From assembly GCA_025454635.1 (NCBI GenBank), contig JALOOB010000004.1, positions 1-34,761 of the forward strand: a stretch of 34,761 nucleotides of DNA. The letters run 5' to 3'. Made by a program: the position numbers and the translations under genes. This stretch comes from Anaerolineae bacterium. GTDB lineage: Bacteria > Chloroflexota > Anaerolineae > CG2-30-64-16. Position 1 is the stretch's first letter, and each line of letters begins with the position of its first letter. Positions 2,442 to 13,969 of this stretch are shown piece by piece. Under the pieces are notes generated by a model. That model was not told where the DNA came from. It did no database searches and was given only the letters and a program-made list of their open reading frames with translations.

Positions 2442-3008
2442 ATGAACAAGCTTTTTTCGTCTGCGGAAATCGAAGCTCGTCTTTCTGCGCTCGGCCCGTC
2501 CCCCCGCGACCACGGGCGACTTGAGCTTATCGTGGCGCGTCCCGAGCCAGGGGGCCGGCGGATTCTGGACTGCGGTGAGCTCGACCTCGCCATGGGGCTG
2601 GTGGGCGACAATTGGCTGGAACGCGGCAACCCAAACGCGCCAGACGGCCGCGCCAACCCCGATGCGCAGATCACCCTGATGAACTGGCGCGTCATCCAGG
2701 CCCTCGCTGAGGACCGCGCCCAATGGCTGCTCGCCGGCGACCAACTGTTCGTCGACCTCGACCTAAGCGAGGAAAATCTCCCGCCGGGCCGGCGGCTGGC
2801 AATCGGCGCTGCCGTCCTTGAAGTGACCGCCACGCCCCACACCGGTTGCGTCAAGTTCACCGAACGGTTCGGTCACGACGCAATCCGGTGGGTTAACTCG
2901 CTGGAAGGACGGCAACAACGCCTGCGCGGAATGAACATGCGCGTCGTTCGACCGGGCAGAATCTGCGCGGGCGACGCCGTTACCATTTTGGAAGAGGAAG
3001 TGCGCTAA
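2442..3008 (+). CDS. MOSC domain protein
   Basis: This 188-residue protein matches the stand-alone MOSC family, named after the molybdenum cofactor sulfurase C-terminal domain. The family's signature cysteine is present at C136 in TPHTGCVKF, followed by RGMNMRVV and a C-terminal beta strand typical of the fold. MOSC proteins are thought to carry sulfur on that cysteine or to bind molybdenum-cofactor enzymes, but the substrate here is unknown. The gene starts 17 bases after the kinase and shares one base with the next gene in a TAATG overlap. It is therefore almost certainly co-translated with the URO-D gene. No molybdoenzyme is encoded in the window, which leaves its partner unexplained. Confidence 0.85.
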   Translation: MNKLFSSAEIEARLSALGPSPRDHGRLELIVARPEPGGRRILDCGELDLAMGLVGDNWLERGNPNAPDGRANPDAQITLMNWRVIQALAEDRAQWLLAGDQLFVDLDLSEENLPPGRRLAIGAAVLEVTATPHTGCVKFTERFGHDAIRWVNSLEGRQQRLRGMNMRVVRPGRICAGDAVTILEEEVR

Positions 3009-4201
3009 TGGAAGCCGTTGCTACGCAGCTCTGGACTACCGTTCCTTTGACGCCCGCCGAGCGGAGCGAGTTTGAGGCCTTGTTCGCCGCGCGCCTGGCC
3101 AAGGTCAAGGCCAAAACAGCCGACGTTTTCGCCTTTCGCAAGACGGACGCGCCGCCCTTCATCGTCAACAGCGCGCTGTACTGGGTGTTCGGCCTCGACC
3201 CCGAAACCTTCCCTGACGATTACTTTGACCCGCGCGTGATGACCGCCTTTCAGGAGCGCACGTATTACGACCAGGTCAAGTCCATCGACGACGACTTCGT
3301 GCCGTATCTGATGCCGTGGTACGGCACCGTGGTTGCAGCGTCCGCGCTCGGCTGCCAGATCGAGTTCTATCCGAAGCAGGACCCGGCGGCGAACCCGCGC
3401 TATTATCCGGTCGTCACCCCGGAAGACGTACGCCGGCTGGAGATCCCTGATCCCGAGAAGGACGGCCTCATGCCGCGGGTGCTGGACTGCTTGCGCTACA
3501 TGAAGGCGAACAGCTTCCTGCCGGTGGGTTACACCGATTTTCAGGGCCCGTTAACGACCGCTAACCAACTCATGGGCTACGATAAACTCATCTATCTTAT
3601 GCATGACCACCCCAATGCGATGCACGAGTTGATGGACAAGGTCACGGAGACGCTCATCCGTTGGGTTAAGGCGCAGAAGGCGGTCATCGGCGAGCCGCTG
3701 AACGAGTGCATCGGCGACCAGCAGGTATATACCGGCGAGCACGCGGGCGTCTGGTTCTCCGACGACGACGCGGTGCTGATGTCCGTAAGGACGTACCGCG
3801 AGTTCGTCGTGCCGTACAACTCGCGCGTGCTCGAAGCGTTTGGGGGCGGCTGCATCCACTACTGCGGCAACGCCACGCATCATGCCGACAACTTCCTGGC
3901 GACGAAGGGGCTCAAGGCCCTCAACATCTACAACCTCTACAACATCCCATCGGTGAGGAGACTGCAGGAGCGGCTGCAGGACAAGGTCGTCCTCTTCGTT
4001 TGCGATTTCACGCCGGTGGAATACGAGGCGTACTTCGACGAGATGCTTGCGACGCTTGACCCGCGCGGCGTCGTCATCTGCTCGCAATACTCGCCGGTGG
4101 TGGGCCTGCTCAAGGGCGGCAAGTATGACGCTGTGCGGCGCGACCTGCGCACGGGGCGGGAGGCCGTCTACAACTACTTGCGCCGGAGGCTGAACCCGTA
4201 G
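3008..4201 (+). CDS. Uroporphyrinogen decarboxylase superfamily protein (URO-D-like, methyltransferase type)
   Basis: This 397-residue protein has the URO-D TIM-barrel pattern. It is not expected to be the heme enzyme, because no heme genes are near. It carries H284-Y285-C286-G287, comparable to the metal-binding HxCG of cobalamin/coenzyme M methyltransferases of the MtaA/MtbA kind. Other recognisable stretches are the GYTDFQGPL segment and the C-terminal VVICSQYSP. In that branch the His and Cys bind zinc and activate a thiol for methyl transfer. Its ATG overlaps the MOSC stop codon. A second, quite different URO-D-type gene lies at 9491-10639, so the pair brackets the transporter. A role in handling a methylated transported compound is inference; another decarboxylase- or lyase-like role is equally open. 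Confidence 0.8.
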   Translation: MEAVATQLWTTVPLTPAERSEFEALFAARLAKVKAKTADVFAFRKTDAPPFIVNSALYWVFGLDPETFPDDYFDPRVMTAFQERTYYDQVKSIDDDFVPYLMPWYGTVVAASALGCQIEFYPKQDPAANPRYYPVVTPEDVRRLEIPDPEKDGLMPRVLDCLRYMKANSFLPVGYTDFQGPLTTANQLMGYDKLIYLMHDHPNAMHELMDKVTETLIRWVKAQKAVIGEPLNECIGDQQVYTGEHAGVWFSDDDAVLMSVRTYREFVVPYNSRVLEAFGGGCIHYCGNATHHADNFLATKGLKALNIYNLYNIPSVRRLQERLQDKVVLFVCDFTPVEYEAYFDEMLATLDPRGVVICSQYSPVVGLLKGGKYDAVRRDLRTGREAVYNYLRRRLNP

Positions 4202-4307: not shown

Positions 4308-4688
4308 ATGTCCCCCATCTGTCTCATTGGCGAGTCCGATCCGTTTCTAGCCCGACTGCTTTCGCGTTTTTGCGAGGCGTCGGGCCTTTCTGTCATTCGC
4401 GCACAGGTGGGTGAGGAGTTCGTTGCGCTGGCCCGGCGCGAGCATCCCGACTTGATGATCCTCGACGTCGAGCTGCCGGGCGAGCAGCGCGGGTGGCAGG
4501 CGGCGCAGACGCTCCGCGGCGAACTGGACGGCGCGGCTGCGCCGGTCATCGCGTGTTCGTGGCTGCCTCGGGCCGATGCGGTTGCGCTGATGTCCGGTTG
4601 CGCGGCTTACCTGCAAAAACCCGAATTACACTACGATGATTTTGTCGCGGCCCTCAAGGAAGCCGGCTTCGAGCCGGCACAAAGGTAG
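4308..4688 (+). CDS. Single-domain response regulator (receiver only)
   Basis: This 126-residue protein is only a CheY-like receiver. The acidic pocket is E9/D11, the phosphoacceptor is D53 in LMILDVELPG, the switch residue is S84, and the conserved lysine is K104 in YLQKPEL. There is no output domain, so it must act by contact with another protein or as a phosphate intermediate. It lies between the hybrid kinase operon and the ABC transporter genes, all on one strand. The upstream kinase could be its phosphodonor, which is inference. No strong Shine-Dalgarno sequence is visible before the ATG at 4308. Confidence 0.85.
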   Translation: MSPICLIGESDPFLARLLSRFCEASGLSVIRAQVGEEFVALARREHPDLMILDVELPGEQRGWQAAQTLRGELDGAAAPVIACSWLPRADAVALMSGCAAYLQKPELHYDDFVAALKEAGFEPAQR

Positions 4689-4741: not shown

Positions 4742-6274
4742 ATGAATCAACCCAGCAACTCACTACTACGCGTCGAAGGCATCTCCAAAGCCTTTCCGGG
4801 CGTGCAAGCGCTCTCCGACGTTTCGCTTGACGTGCGAGCGGGGGAAATCCTTGCCCTGGTCGGGGAGAATGGCGCGGGCAAGTCAACGCTTATTCATATC
4901 CTCGCGGGCGCGTACCATCCCGACGCGGGCCAGATCTATCTCGACGGGCGGGAGGTGGCGTTCGGGAGCACGCAGGCCGCGGAGCAAGCGGGCGTCAGCG
5001 TGGTATTCCAGGAATTGAGCCTGGTGCCCAACCTGAGCGTCGCGGAGAACGTCTTCGCCAACAGCCAGCCGCTCGGCGCGCTCGGCCTGATCGATCAGCG
5101 CGCGATGTATGCCCGCACAAAGGAACTGCTGGACCTGTTCAAGGTGGATTTCCGCCCGAATGCGCAGGTGGGTCGCCTGTCGATGGGCAACCAGCAGATG
5201 GTGGAGATCGTCAAGGCACTGGCCCGCAACGCCAAAGTGCTCGTCCTCGACGAACCTACCTCGTCGCTCACACTGCAGGAGGCCGCGCGTCTGTTCGAGC
5301 GGCTGAACCAACTGCGCGGGCAGGGTTTCGCGATCATCTACGTGTCGCACCATCTCGAAGAGGTGCTCGAAATCTCGGACCGGGTGGCGGTGCTCCGCGA
5401 CGGCAAGTTGGTCGGCATCCGCCCCACGGCGGAGCTGAACGAACACCAGATCGTCAGCATGATGGTTGGCCGCGAGCTGGAGGCGTTTGCGGACCGCGGC
5501 GCGGAGCGCGAGCGCGGCGCGGAAGCGATGCGCGTCGAAGGATTTTCGCGGGGGACCGTCTTTGAAGGCGTGAGTTTCACGCTCCACGAGGGCGAAGTGC
5601 TCACGTTCTTCGGCCTCGTCGGCGCCGGGCGCACGGAAGTGGCGCGCGCGCTGATGGGGCTGGACAGCGGCGCGACAGGCGCAGTGCAGTTGAGCGGCAA
5701 GCCGGCGCACATCACCACGCCGAGCGCCGCGATGCGCGCGGGCATGGCGTACCTGTCCGAGGACCGCAAAAACGAGGGCCTCTTCCTCGATAAGACCATC
5801 ACAGAGAATTTCCTCGCGCCGAACCTGCAACGGGTCTCGCCGGGTGGGTGGCTGCGCTGGGACGCGCTGAACAAGATCACGACGCACTACACCAAGCAGC
5901 TCGACGTGAAGACGCCGAGCCTCAAGCAGAAGCTCCGCAATCTCTCGGGCGGCAACCAGCAGAAGGTGTTTCTGGGCCAGTGGCTCGCCCGCGACCCGAA
6001 GATCCTGATCGTGGATGAACCCACGCGCGGCATCGACGTCGGCACAAAGCAGGAGATTCACCGCCTGTTGCGTGAGTTGGCCGCGGGCGGAAAGGCCGTG
6101 ATGGTCATCTCGTCGGACCTGCCCGAGGCGCTCCGCGTGAGCGATCGGATTGCGGTCATGCGCGAGGGCAAGCTCGTCGATATCGTCCCCGGACGCGGGG
6201 CAACCGAAGAACAGATTATGGCGCTGGCGGCCGGCGTGACGGGCGCGAAGCAAACCGAGGAGGTGAGGGCATGA
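4742..6274 (+). CDS. Sugar-type ABC transporter ATPase, two nucleotide-binding domains (RbsA/MglA/XylG type)
   Basis: This 510-residue protein drives import through the permease that follows. The first domain has Walker A GENGAGKST at residues 41-49, the signature-like LSMGNQQMVEIVKAL and a Walker B VLVLDEPTSSL. The second domain has a degenerate Walker A (FGLVGAGRTE), as is normal for this family, followed by LSGGNQQKV near residue 401 and LIVDEPTRGIDVG. The length and two-domain layout match carbohydrate-uptake transporters of the RbsA group. The GGCGGAAGG Shine-Dalgarno sequence is strong. Its stop overlaps the permease start as ATGA. A small inverted repeat, GATTC/GAATC at 4714-4728, lies just upstream. 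The substrate cannot be read from the ATPase. Confidence 0.95.
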   Translation: MNQPSNSLLRVEGISKAFPGVQALSDVSLDVRAGEILALVGENGAGKSTLIHILAGAYHPDAGQIYLDGREVAFGSTQAAEQAGVSVVFQELSLVPNLSVAENVFANSQPLGALGLIDQRAMYARTKELLDLFKVDFRPNAQVGRLSMGNQQMVEIVKALARNAKVLVLDEPTSSLTLQEAARLFERLNQLRGQGFAIIYVSHHLEEVLEISDRVAVLRDGKLVGIRPTAELNEHQIVSMMVGRELEAFADRGAERERGAEAMRVEGFSRGTVFEGVSFTLHEGEVLTFFGLVGAGRTEVARALMGLDSGATGAVQLSGKPAHITTPSAAMRAGMAYLSEDRKNEGLFLDKTITENFLAPNLQRVSPGGWLRWDALNKITTHYTKQLDVKTPSLKQKLRNLSGGNQQKVFLGQWLARDPKILIVDEPTRGIDVGTKQEIHRLLRELAAGGKAVMVISSDLPEALRVSDRIAVMREGKLVDIVPGRGATEEQIMALAAGVTGAKQTEEVRA

Positions 6275-7269
6275 GCATCTCAGCAAGCAAGGGCGCCACA
6301 ACGGCCGAAGCCCGCCCCAGCATCTTCCGCCGCCTGCTCGAGCAGCGCGAGCTCAGCATCTTCATCGTCGTATTGATCGTGGCAGCCGGCCTCCGGATCG
6401 CATCGCCCAATTTCCTGAGCCAGGCGAACCTCACCGCGCTGGTGCTCGGACTTTCGTTCAACGCCATTGCGGCGGTTGGCATGACCGTGCTGCTCATCTC
6501 CGGCGGCTTTGACCTCTCGATCGGCGCGTCGCTGGCTCTGGCGGGCGCGGTAGCGGGCATGGTGATGACGAAGTTTGGGATGCCCGCGCCAATTGGCATT
6601 CTCGCCGGGCTTCTGGCGGGCGCGGCGGTCGGGCTTGCGAACGGCCTGATTATCGCGAAGGTGGGGGTTAATCCGTTAATTGCCACGCTTGGCATGCAGC
6701 AGGTGGCGCGCGGCATCGTCTTCCTGCTCACGTCGGGCCTGGGCATCCCGAACCTGCCCGACGAGTTCAACGTCATCGCGCAGGGCAAACTTTTCACGCT
6801 CCAGTACCCCGTCTATATCATGCTCATTGTCGTTATTGTGGGGGAGATCCTGCTGCGGCGCTGGCGTTTCTTCCGCCAGAGCTACTTCATCGGCGGCAAC
6901 GAGCGCAGCGCGCGCCTCTCCGGCATCAACGTCGACCGCGTGAAGATCATCAACTACATCCTGATGGGCACGCTTGCCGCGTTGAGCGGCGTGCTGCTCA
7001 CCGCGCGCATGGGCACCGCCTCGGTGTCTGCCGGCCTCGGCGTCGATCTGCAAGTTATCTCGGCTTGCGTTATCGGCGGCGCCAGCCTCGCCGGCGGCGA
7101 AGGCTCGGTGCTTGGCTCGCTGCTGGGCGTCATCCTGATGGCGCTTATCCTGAACGGCCTGAATCTGCTGGGCATCAATCCGTACTGGCAGACCATCGTC
7201 ATCGGCGGCGTCCTGATCCTGACCGTCGCGGTCGACGCGCTCAACCGCCGCCGGAGCTCCAGCAAGTAA
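6271..7269 (+). CDS. Sugar-type ABC transporter permease (RbsC type)
   Basis: This 332-residue integral membrane protein has about 8-10 hydrophobic segments. It shows the family stretches GGFDLSIGASLALAGA and VIGGASLAGGEGSVLGSLLG, which are typical of BPD_transp_2 permeases for ribose, xylose, galactose and related solutes. It would form the channel, probably as a homodimer, with the upstream ATPase. The start codon overlaps the ATPase stop by four bases. Downstream, 131 bases containing a palindromic repeat separate it from the binding-protein gene. There is no second permease gene, so a single permease serves a binding protein that carries two ligand domains. Confidence 0.95.
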   Translation: MSISASKGATTAEARPSIFRRLLEQRELSIFIVVLIVAAGLRIASPNFLSQANLTALVLGLSFNAIAAVGMTVLLISGGFDLSIGASLALAGAVAGMVMTKFGMPAPIGILAGLLAGAAVGLANGLIIAKVGVNPLIATLGMQQVARGIVFLLTSGLGIPNLPDEFNVIAQGKLFTLQYPVYIMLIVVIVGEILLRRWRFFRQSYFIGGNERSARLSGINVDRVKIINYILMGTLAALSGVLLTARMGTASVSAGLGVDLQVISACVIGGASLAGGEGSVLGSLLGVILMALILNGLNLLGINPYWQTIVIGGVLILTVAVDALNRRRSSSK

Positions 7270-7277
7270 CGCTTTCT

Positions 7278-7356
7278 TCACCACGAAGCGCCGAAGAAGC
7301 AAAGTTTCACCAAACCTCCCTGCGCGCGCCTTTGGGTCTTCGTGTCTTCGTGGTGA
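7278..7356. repeat. Imperfect palindromic repeat element, copy A
   Basis: Outer arms TCACCACGAAG (7278-7288) and CTTCGTGGTGA (7346-7356) are perfect inverted repeats of 11 bp. Further CGAAGAAG/CTTCGTG and CAAAG/CTTTG matches lie inside them. It fills most of the 131-bp gap between the permease and binding-protein genes. A related element with the same CCACGAAG arms lies at 25567-25647. This looks like a dispersed REP- or MITE-like sequence. In this position it could act as a processing or attenuation hairpin between permease and binding protein, although no U-tract follows. Confidence 0.6.
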
Positions 7357-7400
7357 CTCGTCACTAACCGCACCACATACTCAGGAGGAAGGAGTCTCAC

Positions 7401-9422
7401 ATGCAACGTCGACTGTTGTCTATCCTGTGCCTCGTGACGATCTTCGTCATGCTGGCGGGCTGCGCTGCTCCGCAGCCGGCTCCCGCGCCCGCGGCTCAGG
7501 CGACCACGGCCCCCGCGGCCGAGGCGACCAAGGAACCCGCCGCTGCGGCCCCCGAGGCTGCGCCCACGACCGCGCCCGCTGCGGAAGCCCCCAAGCCCGC
7601 GGAGGGCGAGAAGCTCTACTTCGAGGCGCTGGCGCTCACGAACCTGCCGTACTTCATCGACCACCGCGTCGGCCTGGAGTTTGCGGGCAAGGCGCTGAAC
7701 GCAAAGACGAAGTTCGTCGGCCCGGTCGATTACGACATGACCGCGATGATCAACTCGATGGAACAGGCCGCGGCCGAGAATCCGTCGGGCATCAATGTCG
7801 TCGGGTTTGACCCTGCGCTGAAGCCGGCCATCGACCAATTGGTCGAAGCGGGCGTTCCGGTCGTGACGCTTGACGCGGAAGTTTACGGCTCAAAGCGCCT
7901 GACCTTCCTCGGCACCGGCAACTTCAACGCCGGCGTCGTCGGCGGTCGCATCCTCGCGAACCTGATCGGCGGCAAGGGCAAGGTCGCGCTGATCACGAAG
8001 GTCGGGCAGAGCAACCTTGAAGAGCGCATCGCGGGCTACAAGGATGTCTTCGAGAAGGAATTCCCCGACATTGAGCTGGTCCAGATCATCGACGACCAGT
8101 CGGATTCGGCGAAGGCTGCGGACGGCCTGAAGGCCGTGCTCCAGCGCGAGCCGGAACTGGCGGGCGTCGGCTGCGTCGAGGCGGCGGGCGGCGTGGGCGC
8201 GGCGACCGCGTCCAAGGAGCTCGGCCTTGTTGGCAAGCTGAAGATCGTGTCGATGGACCGCGACGACGGCACCCTCAAGTTCATCGAAGACGGCGTCATC
8301 GACGCGTCCATCGCGCAGAAGAGCGCGCTGATGACGTTCTACGGCACGCTGCTGATGGACGGCCTCGTCTTCAACCCTGTGCCGATCGTGGCGGACAACA
8401 AGGCCGCCAATGTCGTGCCCATGCCGGAAGCGGTGGACACGGGCGTCGTCGTTATCAACAAAGACAACGCGAAGCTGTTCTACCACACCGAAGATCCCTA
8501 CGACTTCAGCAACGTCCCGTTCACCGAGCCGACGCCGGACGAGACCTACGTCGAGGTGCTCGCGCTGACCAACCTGCCGTACTTCATCGACCATCGCCTC
8601 GGCCTGGAGTTCGCGGGCAAGGAACTGGGCGTCAAGACCAAGTTCGTCGGCCCGGTCGACTACGACATGACCGCAATGATCAACACGCTGGAACAGACCA
8701 TCGCCGAGAAGCCCGCGGGCATCCTCGTCGTCGGCTTCGACCCGGCGCTCAAGCCCTCGATCGACAAGGCCGCGGACGCCGGCATCCCGATCGTCACGCT
8801 GGACGCGGAGGTCTACGGCTCCAAGCGCCTGACCTTCCTTGGCACGGGCAACAAGAACGCCGGCCACGTGGGCGCGAAGCTGCTGGCCGAGCAAATCGGC
8901 GGCAAGGGCAAGGTCGCCTTGATCACCAAGGTCGGCCAGAGCAACCTCGAAGAGCGCATCCAGGGCTACAAGGACGAGTTCGCCGCCAACTACCCGGACA
9001 TCGAGATCGTCCAGATCATCGACGACCAGTCTGACTCGGCGAAGGCCGCAGACGGCCTCAAGGCCGTGCTCCAGCGCATCCCGGACCTCGCCGGCGTTGG
9101 CTGTGTGGAGGCTGCGGGTGGCGTGGGCGCCGCGACCGCCGCGAAGGAACTGGACCTGGTCGGCAAGCTGAAGATCATCTCCATGGACCGCGACGACGGC
9201 ACGCTGAAGTTCATCGAGGACGGCGTGATCCAGGGCTCGGTGGCGCAGAAGACCGCGCTGATGAGCTACCTCGGCACCAAGTTCATGTACTACCTGAACC
9301 ATGCGCCGGTCCCGGTTGTGGCCGACAACAAGGCCGCCGGCCTAACGTCCATGCCGGAGTCCGTTGACACGGGCACCATCGTGATCAACAAGGACAACGC
9401 TGCGTTCTTCTATCACAAGTAA
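7401..9422 (+). CDS. ABC transporter substrate-binding lipoprotein with two tandem ligand domains
   Basis: This 673-residue secreted lipoprotein has a signal sequence with lipobox LAGC (C21) and an Ala/Pro/Thr linker to about residue 72. It then carries two copies of a periplasmic-binding domain of the ribose-binding group (residues 73-362 and 383-672), joined by a 20-residue linker. The copies align without gaps, and I count 227 of 290 identical residues (78%). Both keep PYFIDHR, GFDPALKP, TLDAEVYGSKR, KVGQSNLEER and MDRDDGTLKF. Normal family members have a single domain of about 300 residues. The Shine-Dalgarno sequence AGGAGGAAGGAG is very strong, fitting high expression. It surely feeds the upstream RbsA/RbsC transporter. 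The second copy has no signal peptide of its own. Confidence 0.95.
   Translation: MQRRLLSILCLVTIFVMLAGCAAPQPAPAPAAQATTAPAAEATKEPAAAAPEAAPTTAPAAEAPKPAEGEKLYFEALALTNLPYFIDHRVGLEFAGKALNAKTKFVGPVDYDMTAMINSMEQAAAENPSGINVVGFDPALKPAIDQLVEAGVPVVTLDAEVYGSKRLTFLGTGNFNAGVVGGRILANLIGGKGKVALITKVGQSNLEERIAGYKDVFEKEFPDIELVQIIDDQSDSAKAADGLKAVLQREPELAGVGCVEAAGGVGAATASKELGLVGKLKIVSMDRDDGTLKFIEDGVIDASIAQKSALMTFYGTLLMDGLVFNPVPIVADNKAANVVPMPEAVDTGVVVINKDNAKLFYHTEDPYDFSNVPFTEPTPDETYVEVLALTNLPYFIDHRLGLEFAGKELGVKTKFVGPVDYDMTAMINTLEQTIAEKPAGILVVGFDPALKPSIDKAADAGIPIVTLDAEVYGSKRLTFLGTGNKNAGHVGAKLLAEQIGGKGKVALITKVGQSNLEERIQGYKDEFAANYPDIEIVQIIDDQSDSAKAADGLKAVLQRIPDLAGVGCVEAAGGVGAATAAKELDLVGKLKIISMDRDDGTLKFIEDGVIQGSVAQKTALMSYLGTKFMYYLNHAPVPVVADNKAAGLTSMPESVDTGTIVINKDNAAFFYHK
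7617..9416 (+). repeat. Intragenic tandem duplication, 930-bp period
   Basis: Copy 1 spans 7617-8486 and copy 2 spans 8547-9416. The offset is exactly 930 bp, that is 310 codons including the linker. The DNA is also very similar, with many differences in third codon positions. This suggests an old duplication under selection rather than a recent copy error. Divergence is concentrated near the ends of each domain and in a few surface helices. Confidence 0.9.
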
Positions 9423-9430
9423 AACCTCGC

Positions 9431-9471
9431 CCCTTGGCCCCCTCTCCTTTGCCGGGAGAGGGGGCCAAGGG
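9431..9471 (+). terminator. Strong hairpin after the binding-protein gene
   Basis: Perfect 17-bp arms lie at 9431-9447 and 9455-9471 (CCCTTGGCCCCCTCTCC and its complement) with a 7-base loop. The hairpin begins 8 bases after the stop codon. No U-tract follows, so it may be a transcript-stabilising or REP-type element that protects the binding-protein mRNA rather than a true terminator. Confidence 0.6.
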
Positions 9472-9490
9472 ATCAGGCAAGAGGCGTCGT

Positions 9491-10639
9491 ATGAATTCTC
9501 GTGAGCGAGTGCTTGCCGCTCTGAATCACCGTGAGGGCGATCGCGTGCCGTTCGACATGGGCGGCACGGTCATCACGGGCATCCACCACAAGGCATACAC
9601 GAATCTGCGCGCTGCGCTCGGCCTGCCCGCGCGCGAGCCGAAGATCATCGACATGATCCAGCAATTGGCGCAGGTTGAAGACGACGTCATGGATTGCCTC
9701 GGCGTCGATGTGAAGAACATCTCGCCCCGGTCGTCCGCGACGTTCGAGATCACCGTGCGGGACATGGGGGAGTACACGGCCTTCTACGACGAGTTCGGGA
9801 TCGGCTGGCGCTCGCCCAAGGACGGCGGGTGGTATTACGATATGTTCGACCACCCCCTGCGCGGGCAGAAGGACGTGGCCGACGTCGAGCAGTTCCCCCT
9901 GCCAGACCCGCTCGACCCGGCGCGCTTTGCAGGGCTGCGCGAGGCCGCGATCAGGATTCGCGACGAAGAGCAGCGCGCGGTCGTCTTCGGCAACATGTCG
10001 GCGGGCATCTTCGAGTTGCTGACCTGGCTGCGCGGGTACGAGGACGCCTATGCGGACTGGGGATCCAACTCGCCGGTCGCGACGAAGCTGATGGACCGCG
10101 TGCTGGAGATGCAACTCCGGTATCTCGAAAAGGGCCTGTCGGTCGTCGGGGACGTCATCGACGTGGCGCAGATCGCGGACGACGTGGCGGGGCAGTACAG
10201 CCTGCTCATCTCGCCGCGCAGCTACCGCCGGCTGCTGAAGCCGCTGCACAAGCAGCTTTGCGACTACATCCACAGCCACTCGAACGCGAAGGTGTTCATG
10301 CATTCGTGCGGCGCGATCCGCGACATCCTGCCCGATCTCATCGAAGTCGGCGTCGATATCATCAACCCGGTGCAGGTCAGCGCGGCAGGGATGGACTCGG
10401 CCGAGCTGAAGCGCGAGTTCGGCAAGGACATCGTTTTCTGGGGCGGCGGCGTGGACACGCAGCGCGTCCTTGGCACGGGCACGCCGGAAGAGGTGCGCGC
10501 GGAGGTCAAGCGCCGCGTCGAGGACTTCAAGCCCGGCGGCGGGTTCGTGTTCAACACGGTGCACAACATCCAGGGGAATGTCCCCGCGGAGAACCTGGTC
10601 GCGATGTGGGAGGCGGTGCGCGAGTACGGGACGTATTAG
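9491..10639 (+). CDS. URO-D superfamily protein with HSCG motif (MtaA/CmuA-like methyltransferase type)
   Basis: This 382-residue protein starts MNSRERVLAAL. An in-frame TTG at 9434 lies inside the hairpin and is rejected as a start. The motif H271-S272-C273-G274 followed by IRDILPDLIEVGVDIINPVQ is the typical metal-binding region of methylcobalamin:thiol methyltransferases and their many uncharacterised relatives. FWGGGVDTQRVL and the C-terminal GGGFVFNTVHNIQGNVP complete the family pattern. It follows the binding protein by 68 bases on the same strand. With the URO-D-like gene at 3008 it flanks the ABC transporter. A corrinoid-linked demethylation role is plausible but unproven, and no corrinoid protein is encoded nearby. 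Confidence 0.85.
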   Translation: MNSRERVLAALNHREGDRVPFDMGGTVITGIHHKAYTNLRAALGLPAREPKIIDMIQQLAQVEDDVMDCLGVDVKNISPRSSATFEITVRDMGEYTAFYDEFGIGWRSPKDGGWYYDMFDHPLRGQKDVADVEQFPLPDPLDPARFAGLREAAIRIRDEEQRAVVFGNMSAGIFELLTWLRGYEDAYADWGSNSPVATKLMDRVLEMQLRYLEKGLSVVGDVIDVAQIADDVAGQYSLLISPRSYRRLLKPLHKQLCDYIHSHSNAKVFMHSCGAIRDILPDLIEVGVDIINPVQVSAAGMDSAELKREFGKDIVFWGGGVDTQRVLGTGTPEEVRAEVKRRVEDFKPGGGFVFNTVHNIQGNVPAENLVAMWEAVREYGTY

Positions 10640-12133: not shown

Positions 12134-13114
12134 TTACTTCTTTCGCCAGTGGATCTCCGGCCGCTGCCAGTTCCTGATGCGCCACACCCATCCCGCAGGA
12201 TACCCGGCCATTTTCGCCACATCGCCGACGACGCGAATCAGCGGGACCAGCGCGACCGCGCGCGCCTGCTCCCGCGGTTCCAGCGCGGGCAGGCGCTTCG
12301 CGAGCCTGCGGTAGGGCGTCCTGCAATACGCGCCCACGCCGGCCAGCAGCGCCAGCAGCCACCAAGGCCGGTGGAACAGGGTCAAGCCGAGCAGCAGAGG
12401 CAGCGCGAGCAGGTAGGTTCCGTAGCGGATCGCGTGTCGCTTGCGCCAGAGATCGGCCTTGCCGTCGCCGCGCGCGTAGCGGTAGTACTGCTTGGCGAAG
12501 GCCTTCGCCGTGCCGCGGGGGCGAAAATGCGCCAGCGCCTGCGGCGCCCAGGCGAAATGCGTTACCTCGTCGCGCAACCGCAGGTCGAAGATCAGGTCCT
12601 CGCAGTAGTCCAGCCATTCGGGATACTTGCCCGCGCGCTCCCAGGCGGAACGGGTGAATGCGACGGACCGGCTGGAAGGCAGGAACGTCTGCGGGTCGAT
12701 GTCCTCTTCGTCGGGCAACGTCGTCGCGCCGAGCGCAATCTCGAACGTCGAGCGAGGGTCGCTTACGAAGAAGCCGCCCGTCACCTCTGCTGCGCCTGCC
12801 TCAATAGGCCCGACCAATTCCGCGAGCCACTGCGGCTCCAGCCGGACGCCCGCGTCGCACGACGCGATGATATCGCCCCGCGCGGCGGCGACGGCCACGT
12901 TGCGCCCGCGTGAGATGTTGGCCCCTGGCTCGACGATCACGCGTAGCGGCAACCGGTCTTCATACTCGCGCAGCACCGCGACGGTGTTGTCGCGCGAGCC
13001 GCCGTCCACGAAGACGACCTCGTCGGGGCGCCGGGTCTGCGCGACGAGAGTATGAAGCAGCGCCCGGATCGATTCGCCTTCGTTAAGGACAGTGCAGATT
13101 ACGGAAACAGACAT
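12134..13114 (-). CDS. Family 2 glycosyltransferase with C-terminal membrane segment
   Basis: This 326-residue protein has a GT-A fold. It shows the nucleotide-sugar site CTVLNEGESI, then VDGGSRDNT, RGRNVAV and the acidic SCDAG in place of a canonical DxD. The acceptor-side acidic CEDLIFDLRL and QYYRYARGDG (the QxxRW-like position) follow. Two hydrophobic stretches near residues 230-265 (GTYLLALPLLLGLTLF and WWLLALLAGVGAY) anchor it to the membrane. It probably adds a sugar to a cell-surface glycan or lipid carrier. It is a single gene facing the DUF421 operon. The promoter region is shared with the divergent DUF937-like gene. Confidence 0.9.
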   Translation of the reverse strand: MSVSVICTVLNEGESIRALLHTLVAQTRRPDEVVFVDGGSRDNTVAVLREYEDRLPLRVIVEPGANISRGRNVAVAAARGDIIASCDAGVRLEPQWLAELVGPIEAGAAEVTGGFFVSDPRSTFEIALGATTLPDEEDIDPQTFLPSSRSVAFTRSAWERAGKYPEWLDYCEDLIFDLRLRDEVTHFAWAPQALAHFRPRGTAKAFAKQYYRYARGDGKADLWRKRHAIRYGTYLLALPLLLGLTLFHRPWWLLALLAGVGAYCRTPYRRLAKRLPALEPREQARAVALVPLIRVVGDVAKMAGYPAGWVWRIRNWQRPEIHWRKK

Positions 13115-13207
13115 AAAAAGACTCTATCTTGGTTTAGTTGTACTTACCCGGCGTTTGGGGGACAATTATACCTGTATGCCGGAAAATCCCCACGAAAGGA
13201 ACGCAAG
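13115..13207. promoter_or_regulatory. Divergent promoter region
   Basis: This 93-bp gap separates divergent genes. On the - strand TATAAT occurs at 13165-13170, about 50 bases upstream of the glycosyltransferase start, but no good -35 is seen. On the + strand TATACC at 13167-13172 has TTACCC 17 bp upstream. A Shine-Dalgarno sequence AAAGGA at 13195-13200 serves the + strand gene. The two -10 boxes overlap, so transcription in the two directions may compete. Confidence 0.4.
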
Positions 13208-13810
13208 ATGAGCGCAAAGAAAGCGAAACCGCAGCCGCCGCAGGATGAAAGTCGCGGCGTGGAGGATATACTGGGCGGCCTGATGGGCTCCAACGCCGGT
13301 GGGATGCCGCAGGCCGGCGCGAACGATGCCCCTGCGGGCGGGAGCGATCTCGCGGGGATGCTCGGCGGGCTGATGGGCGGCGGCGCATCGGGACAGGGCG
13401 GCGGCAGTGGCGACCTGATGGGCATGCTTGGCGGGCTGATGGGCGGCGGCGCATCGGGACAGGGCGGCGGCGGTGGCGACTTGATGGGCATGCTTGGCGG
13501 CCTGCTGGGCGGGGGATCGCAACAGGGCAGCGGGGTTTCAGCCGGCGGCCCGTCGATCATTTCCGCGCTGCTTCCGCTGGTGATGGGGATGCTGGCCGGC
13601 GGCAAGCGGTCCGGCGGGGTCGACATCGATCAGCGCACGTCGAACGAGTTGCAGGGCATGTTCGGCGCGGCGCAGTCCGGCCAGCTTGACCTGGACCAGG
13701 TTCGCTCGTCCGGCGTCGTGCAGGATGTGGCGGCGCAAACAGGCGCGTCGGAAGACGAGGTTGCCGATACGCTTGCCCAGTTGATGCGAATGATAGGGAG
13801 TCAGGGCTAG
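13208..13810 (+). CDS. Glycine-rich DUF937-like protein
   Basis: This 200-residue protein starts at ATG 13208 (MSAKKAKPQPPQ), supported by AAAGGA eight bases upstream. Reading further upstream only adds non-coding-like sequence. Residues 20-115 are Gly/Met/Leu-rich with repeated MLGGLMGGG units. Residues about 118-200 form a helical domain (SIISALLPLVMGMLAGG, then LDLDQVRSSGVVQDVAAQTG and DEVADTLAQLM) resembling DUF937/YidB-like proteins. No catalytic residues are evident and the function is unknown. It is monocistronic, between divergent and convergent neighbours. Confidence 0.75.
   Translation: MSAKKAKPQPPQDESRGVEDILGGLMGSNAGGMPQAGANDAPAGGSDLAGMLGGLMGGGASGQGGGSGDLMGMLGGLMGGGASGQGGGGGDLMGMLGGLLGGGSQQGSGVSAGGPSIISALLPLVMGMLAGGKRSGGVDIDQRTSNELQGMFGAAQSGQLDLDQVRSSGVVQDVAAQTGASEDEVADTLAQLMRMIGSQG
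13343..13540 (+). repeat. 66-bp tandem repeat inside the glycine-rich gene (3 copies)
   Basis: Three in-frame 22-codon units lie at 13343-13408, 13409-13474 and 13475-13540. Each encodes a DLxGMLGGLMGGG-type segment followed by a Gly/Ser/Gln stretch. Copies 1 and 2 are nearly identical and copy 3 has diverged in its second half. Such repeats readily change number by slippage. Confidence 0.8.
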
Positions 13811-13833
13811 AGGTTACTTAAGGAGTTTACCAG

Positions 13834-13873
13834 GATCGGCGCAGCTCCCGGTCCGGTGGGACCTGCGCCGATC
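13834..13873 (+). terminator. Hairpin terminator after the DUF937-like gene
   Basis: GATCGGCGCAG (13834-13844) and CTGCGCCGATC (13863-13873) form an 11-bp perfect stem, with an inner TCCC/GGGA pairing. It sits 24 bases after the stop codon. A second small hairpin (CCTGCT/AGCAGG, 13900-13917) follows. No U-tract is present. Confidence 0.5.
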
Positions 13874-13969
13874 TGCGGACTCAGTCCTGCTGTGTCCTGC
13901 CTGCTGGTGATAGCAGGATATTCGCAATCTGTTGCGCCGGTATGCAGAAGTAGAAACAGCGCGGTAACG

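Follow-up and report, generated by a model that had tools for sequence, protein, structure and literature searches.

The window analysed here, a whole stretch of 34,761 nucleotides from an Anaerolineae bacterium (assembly GCA_025454635.1, contig JALOOB010000004.1), contains a CUT2-type operon in which the genes for a double ATPase (RbsA) and a BPD_transp_2 permease (RbsC) adjoin the gene for a binding protein (Table 1). The binding protein gene is a single open reading frame on the forward strand, from the ATG at 7401 to the stop codon ending at 9422, which encodes 673 amino acids and is preceded by a strong ribosome-binding site (AGGAGG at 7383-7388 and AGGAG at 7390-7394). The protein contains two stretches that match Peripla_BP_4 (PF13407; 309.7 bits summed against a curated cut-off of 35.1), with the match in the second domain covering residues 391-631, and thus combines two full domains in place of the one binding domain per polypeptide that is the usual form, although no strict requirement, in CUT2 systems.

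The two domains (hereinafter d1 and d2) align without gaps, with 227 of the 290 residues identical, and only one signal peptide, with the lipobox LAGC at residues 18-21, is present. This recount agrees exactly with an earlier reading made from the sequence alone (hereinafter the sequence-only reading), which had placed two gap-free copies, about 78% identical, at the same coordinates, together with a single signal peptide and a 20-residue linker. At the DNA level, d1 and d2 are 78.6% identical (63.8% at third positions) and use the same codon for 159 of the 227 shared residues, indicating that the duplication is not recent. The linker motif PYDFS spans residues 366-370, and P366, Y367, D368, F369, S370, T375, E381 and T382 are invariant in six aligned sequences, the window protein among them. 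The AlphaFold model of the full tandem (mean pLDDT 56) is too poor for a fold search, and secondary structure alone was taken from it.

Table 1. Features of the tandem binding protein gene and its operon.
Feature	Position	Strand	Evidence
URO-D superfamily protein 1, conserved neighbour	3008..4201	+	PF01208; orthologues 73-79% identical in L038, L040, L041, L042
RbsA/AraG-like double ATPase	4742..6274	+	Two ABC_tran stretches; best model AraG, below its cut-off
RbsC/AraH-like permease (sole permease gene in the operon)	6271..7269	+	BPD_transp_2; best models AraH/RbsC, below cut-off
Signal peptide with lipobox LAGC; Cys21 is the predicted lipid anchor	7401..7463	+	Translation; Cys21 invariant in orthologue alignments
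Pro/Ala-rich tether, residues 22-72	7464..7616	+	Translation; degenerate direct repeats 7483-7610
Binding domain 1 (d1), residues 73-362	7617..8486	+	Peripla_BP_4; 78.3% identity to d2
C-lobe of d1, domain positions 81-232	7857..8312	+	Homogenised with d2; orthologue d1/d2 identity lost; AU test
d1-specific part of last N-lobe helix, residues 313-325	8337..8375	+	6/8 fixed d1/d2 differences; model helix 304-324
Inter-domain linker, residues 363-382 (20 residues)	8487..8546	+	PYDFS motif conserved
Binding domain 2 (d2), residues 383-672	8547..9416	+	Peripla_BP_4; closest solved relatives 3g1w, 6sw4
C-lobe of d2, domain positions 81-232	8787..9242	+	Homogenised with d1; AU test
d2-specific part of last N-lobe helix, residues 623-635	9267..9305	+	Fixed d1/d2 differences; model helix 614-634
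URO-D superfamily protein 2, start perhaps ATG 9491	9434..10639	+	PF01208; MtaA/CmuA models below cut-off

Operon context and the ligand

In L038-L042, the orthologous loci whose flanking regions were compared, genes for RbsA and RbsC homologues always lie upstream of the tandem gene, and each locus has one or more URO-D genes nearby. Orthologues of URO-D protein 2 are 75-78% identical in L009/L043 and L039 and 50-63% identical in L038, L040 and L042; the solved relatives of the URO-D proteins are remote. Genes for corrinoid proteins (L039, L040), a pterin-binding methyltransferase (L039) and a CobW protein (L042) are also found in these loci and, together with the URO-D genes, point to corrinoid-dependent methyl transfer. 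The importer probably takes up a small polyol or sugar, which, given the corrinoid methyl-transfer genes in the orthologous operons, is possibly methylated, the latter being the weak step. None of the NCBIfam equivalogs (RbsB, rhizopine, allose, rhamnose) exceeds its cut-off, the best being rhizopine with 150 bits against 420, so that family membership does not identify the ligand; a name derived from NCBIfam or PDB matches was dropped for the same reason.

Two genes upstream of the transporter, one encoding a hybrid histidine kinase with an AraC-like helix-turn-helix region at its end (2-2425) and the other a small receiver-like protein (4308-4688), are possibly the operon's own regulators. 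Homologues of both are found in the same placement in L043, and of the receiver-like protein alone in L039. The region between the RbsC and binding protein genes (7279-7355) contains an inverted repeat, CACCACGAAG ... CTTCGTGGTG, which is a possible attenuator or small repeat element; its exact 18-mer CTTCGTGTCTTCGTGGTG occurs 2 times in the genome.

Conservation of the tandem and other multi-domain binding proteins

The source genome is a fragmented metagenome-assembled genome (MAG) in 549 contigs, so that the concern that two paralogous genes or two strains were falsely joined is a fair one. However, the same tandem protein is found in five Chloroflexota records with different isolate names (L038, L039, L040, L041 and L042; scan of one genome per species) and in a sixth genome (L048 in G489) identified by the class search, and in all six of these Anaerolineae MAGs the two domains are located at an identical spacing of 310 residues. 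The frame is open across the join and the linker is conserved. An assembly artefact is, on the evidence of these assemblies, extremely unlikely and already refuted for the family: the misjoin or collapse near 8487-8546, which the sequence-only reading had named as the outcome that would undo its proposal, is contradicted by the spacing shared with six more MAGs. The proposal itself, that one RbsA/RbsC importer is served by a binding protein with two domains, is supported, and the search that it suggested, for proteins with two Peripla_BP_4 domains next to URO-D genes in Chloroflexota, yields these six MAGs in the same register, with RbsA/RbsC and URO-D genes nearby where flanks were compared. 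The doubling is real, old and conserved. A phylum-wide search of 400 genomes detected no additional orthologue.

A single-domain orthologue is encoded in L043 (5339-6433; the same genome as G002). Its domain is a d1/d2 hybrid, with d1 states at positions 26 and 60 and d2 states at 241-252, which fits recombination between the copies either in the cell (domain loss) or in the assembler (collapse).

Among the matches listed for 13 genomes (the source genome and near relatives), ORF 7401-9422 is the only frame with two PF13407 domains, in line with the earlier statement that family members normally have a single domain. In the wider class, this statement holds less well: tandems are not uncommon among other subfamilies, and a search of 60 relatives brings the genomes with verified tandem frames, other subfamilies and the window included, to 7 of 61. 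Additional tandem or triple Peripla_BP_4 proteins in Anaerolineae fall into those with copies 89-100% identical (L010, L037, L082 with three domains, L084, L085, L041 12226-13962 and L083 8750-10867) and those with copies about 31-34% identical (L012, L016, L017 and L055). In the tree, the copies of each near-identical tandem cluster with one another, a pattern consistent with several independent duplications; for these near-identical copies, concerted evolution and assembly effects are possible alternatives. 

In G489, a second, unrelated tandem binding protein with 100% identical matched stretches (L083:8750-10867) is encoded directly downstream of the first, and in L041 another unrelated tandem with copies about 99% identical (12226-13962) lies about 4 kb downstream of the first; behind such identity there may be a recent duplication, gene conversion or an assembly effect. 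The genome that contains L041 also encodes an 886-amino-acid frame with three Peripla_BP_4-like domains of 89-92% mutual identity (L082:1366-4023). The heterologous tandem of L012, L016, L017 and L055, found in several families of the class, combines domains from different subfamilies, the first of which is close to the single-domain proteins L014 and L015. An intact Treponema relative (L086) has one domain; two other Treponema matches (L044 and L045) are truncated where their contigs end and are compatible with either one domain or two. No tandem form was detected on plasmids, where the best matches among those listed all span about 900 bases and accordingly represent single domains only. A literature search, with subscription papers outside its scope, found no paper on tandem Peripla_BP_4 proteins or free tandem binding lipoproteins.

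Ligand pocket and lobe-wise divergence of the two domains

The putative ligand pocket was delineated by aligning the domains, at low identity, to E. coli RBP (sequence checked against PDB 2dri) and transferring 14 positions that we take to be its ligand-site contacts. All 14 aligned positions are identical in all 14 domains of the seven proteins, compared with 145 of 290 positions overall (p 4e-5), and none of the 63 differences between d1 and d2 of the window protein falls on them. Domain positions 103 and 107, the F/K and V/H sites that the sequence-only reading had taken as a possible sign of two ligand specificities, are Y/Y and R/R in most orthologues and are not copy-specific. The pocket comparison that the same reading had recommended thus reveals no difference between d1 and d2 at the aligned positions, two specificities are unlikely and their derivation from these sites was rejected. 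Given a pocket without variation at any aligned position, the two halves very likely bind one and the same ligand, with second-shell effects on specificity possible.

In a sliding comparison of the seven species, a signal specific to d1 or d2 is seen mainly in two regions of the domain, positions 1 to about 80 and 226-270, and is nearly absent between them. The 14 domains were accordingly divided for tree construction into an N-lobe set (positions 1-80 and 233-290) and a C-lobe set (81-232), boundaries that were set after the identity profile was known, the contrast being large. By alignment to E. coli RBP (RBP 103 corresponds to domain position 100 and RBP 235 to 234), and assuming the lobe limits of the RBP fold as we know them, the first set is mostly N-lobe and C-terminal tail and the second is essentially C-lobe. 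In the N-lobe tree, the d2 sequences form one clade (support 99/98, DNA), and in six of the seven proteins a grouping of d1 with the d2 of the same species is rejected. In the C-lobe tree, conversely, the data reject a clade of d2 sequences (AU p about 1e-42 for DNA and 2e-5 for protein), and the two copies of the same protein pair in L038, L040 and L048 (DNA). The two C-lobes of the window protein do not pair (p 0.11 DNA, 0.013 protein), suggesting that its last exchange was not recent. These trees are most simply read as the result of an old duplication after which the C-lobe segment underwent gene conversion. The sequence comparisons as a whole establish that the tandem arose in the ancestor of the orthologue group by duplication of a single-domain gene.

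The N-lobe of d1 has changed 2.1 times faster in amino acid sequence than that of d2 (in 21 of 21 species pairs, which are not independent), whereas the C-lobe rates are about equal. In the N-lobe, single-domain relatives from Anaerolineae, Treponema and Bradyrhizobium resemble d2 more closely than d1; their C-lobes are not consistently closer to either copy. Taken together, the slower change and this closeness mark d2 as the copy that is ancestral-like and under the tighter constraint. At eight positions, d1 and d2 carry different fixed states throughout the seven proteins; all eight lie in the N-lobe (p 0.0015), and six of them fall in its last helix. The median dN/dS is 0.07-0.14 per lobe in both copies, with dS near saturation in several pairs, and both copies are, as judged from these substitution ratios, demonstrably under strong purifying selection.

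A putative bivalent receptor and its known counterparts

We consider it fairly probable that the tandem protein is a bivalent, same-ligand, lipid-anchored receptor for one CUT2 importer, with d2 as the main docking unit. Under this scheme, a single importer of the CUT2 type (RbsA ATPase and RbsC homodimer) would be served by both domains, which would recognise one and the same small ligand and alternate in docking to the one RbsC dimer. The C-lobes are homogenised within each protein, for which gene conversion is the simplest explanation, and the N-lobes retain their copy-specific character. The role of d2, whose N-lobe is ancestral-like and the slowest to change, as the main docking unit is suggested by this constraint and is speculative; slower evolution of d2 may instead reflect packing against d1. 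With its diverged N-lobe, d1 would mainly capture ligand and raise the supply of loaded domains near the permease, so that higher local ligand capture is a possible benefit. In solved type I importers (MalE-MalFG), the two lobes of one binding protein already span both permease halves, which makes simultaneous docking of d1 and d2 improbable and turn-taking more probable; the earlier idea that the two domains grip both halves of the permease dimer is, for this reason, unlikely. More tentatively, and with less confidence than in the bivalent receptor as such, a division of labour can be envisaged in which the C-lobes and the pocket remain interchangeable through gene conversion and the N-lobes specialise, for docking in d2 and for capture and hand-over in d1, within a broader tendency of the class to place several binding domains on a single lipid anchor.

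Other explanations of the doubling fare worse. That d1 serves mainly as a spacer or stabiliser lifting d2 off the membrane, with incidental ligand binding, would fit its position closer to the lipid anchor and an N-lobe evolving twice as fast as that of d2, but d1 retains all pocket residues under purifying selection, and a spacer does not need an invariant pocket; we regard this possibility as unlikely. Different ligand specificities of d1 and d2, which would widen the range of the importer, have a precedent in GlnPQ (PMC8025302) and could be read into the divergence of the domains to 78% identity. The lack of any pocket difference among 14 domains, the absence of copy specificity at the sites named earlier and the homogenisation within each protein of the C-lobes, which make up half of the pocket, render such a widening rather unlikely as well. 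Similarly improbable is a functionally near-neutral duplication, held by gene conversion and by purifying selection on fold stability: seven genomes keep a fixed register, the linker motif and copy-specific N-lobe residues, even though unrelated binding proteins of the class have repeatedly been duplicated in tandem, often into near-identical copies, and one relative (L043) may have reverted to one domain.

The bivalent receptor, if correct, is a natural, conserved case of two probably same-ligand domains on one anchor with one permease and with fixed differences in one lobe. This built-in comparison of d1 with d2 makes it testable in a CUT2 system whether extra domains raise uptake and which lobe determines docking. 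The recurrent tandem and triple binding domains in Anaerolineae suggest a little-noticed adaptation.

Among known systems, the binding proteins of the RbsB/AraP/TM0114 type (2dri, 6sw4, 3g1w, 2h3h) match each half of the window protein end to end and share the operon order ATPase-permease-binding protein, but the solved relatives found are single-domain chains, in contrast to the two domains on one anchor described here. The other multi-domain proteins of Anaerolineae likewise combine complete binding domains, two or three of them, in a single frame but belong to different subfamilies; with respect to the identity of the copies, the window group lies between the near-identical and the heterologous tandems and shows lobe-wise homogenisation. 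The closest functional parallel is GlnPQ of Lactococcus lactis, in which the tandem domains SBD1 and SBD2, joined by a linker of 14 amino acids, bind independently, and transport is affected by linker length (PMC8025302). Both systems have two binding domains in series on one tether, with a short linker (20 residues in the window protein), for one importer. However, the GlnPQ domains are fused to the permease polypeptide, whereas the window tandem is a free lipoprotein with the permease encoded by a separate gene; the former bind amino acids with differing specificity, whereas the latter belong to the sugar-binding Peripla_BP_4 type and agree at all aligned pocket positions; and the two lobes evolve differently in the window tandem. 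Tandem binding domains as such are already known from GlnPQ; what sets the present case apart is that homogenisation and divergence are split between the lobes and that multi-domain binding proteins recur in the class.
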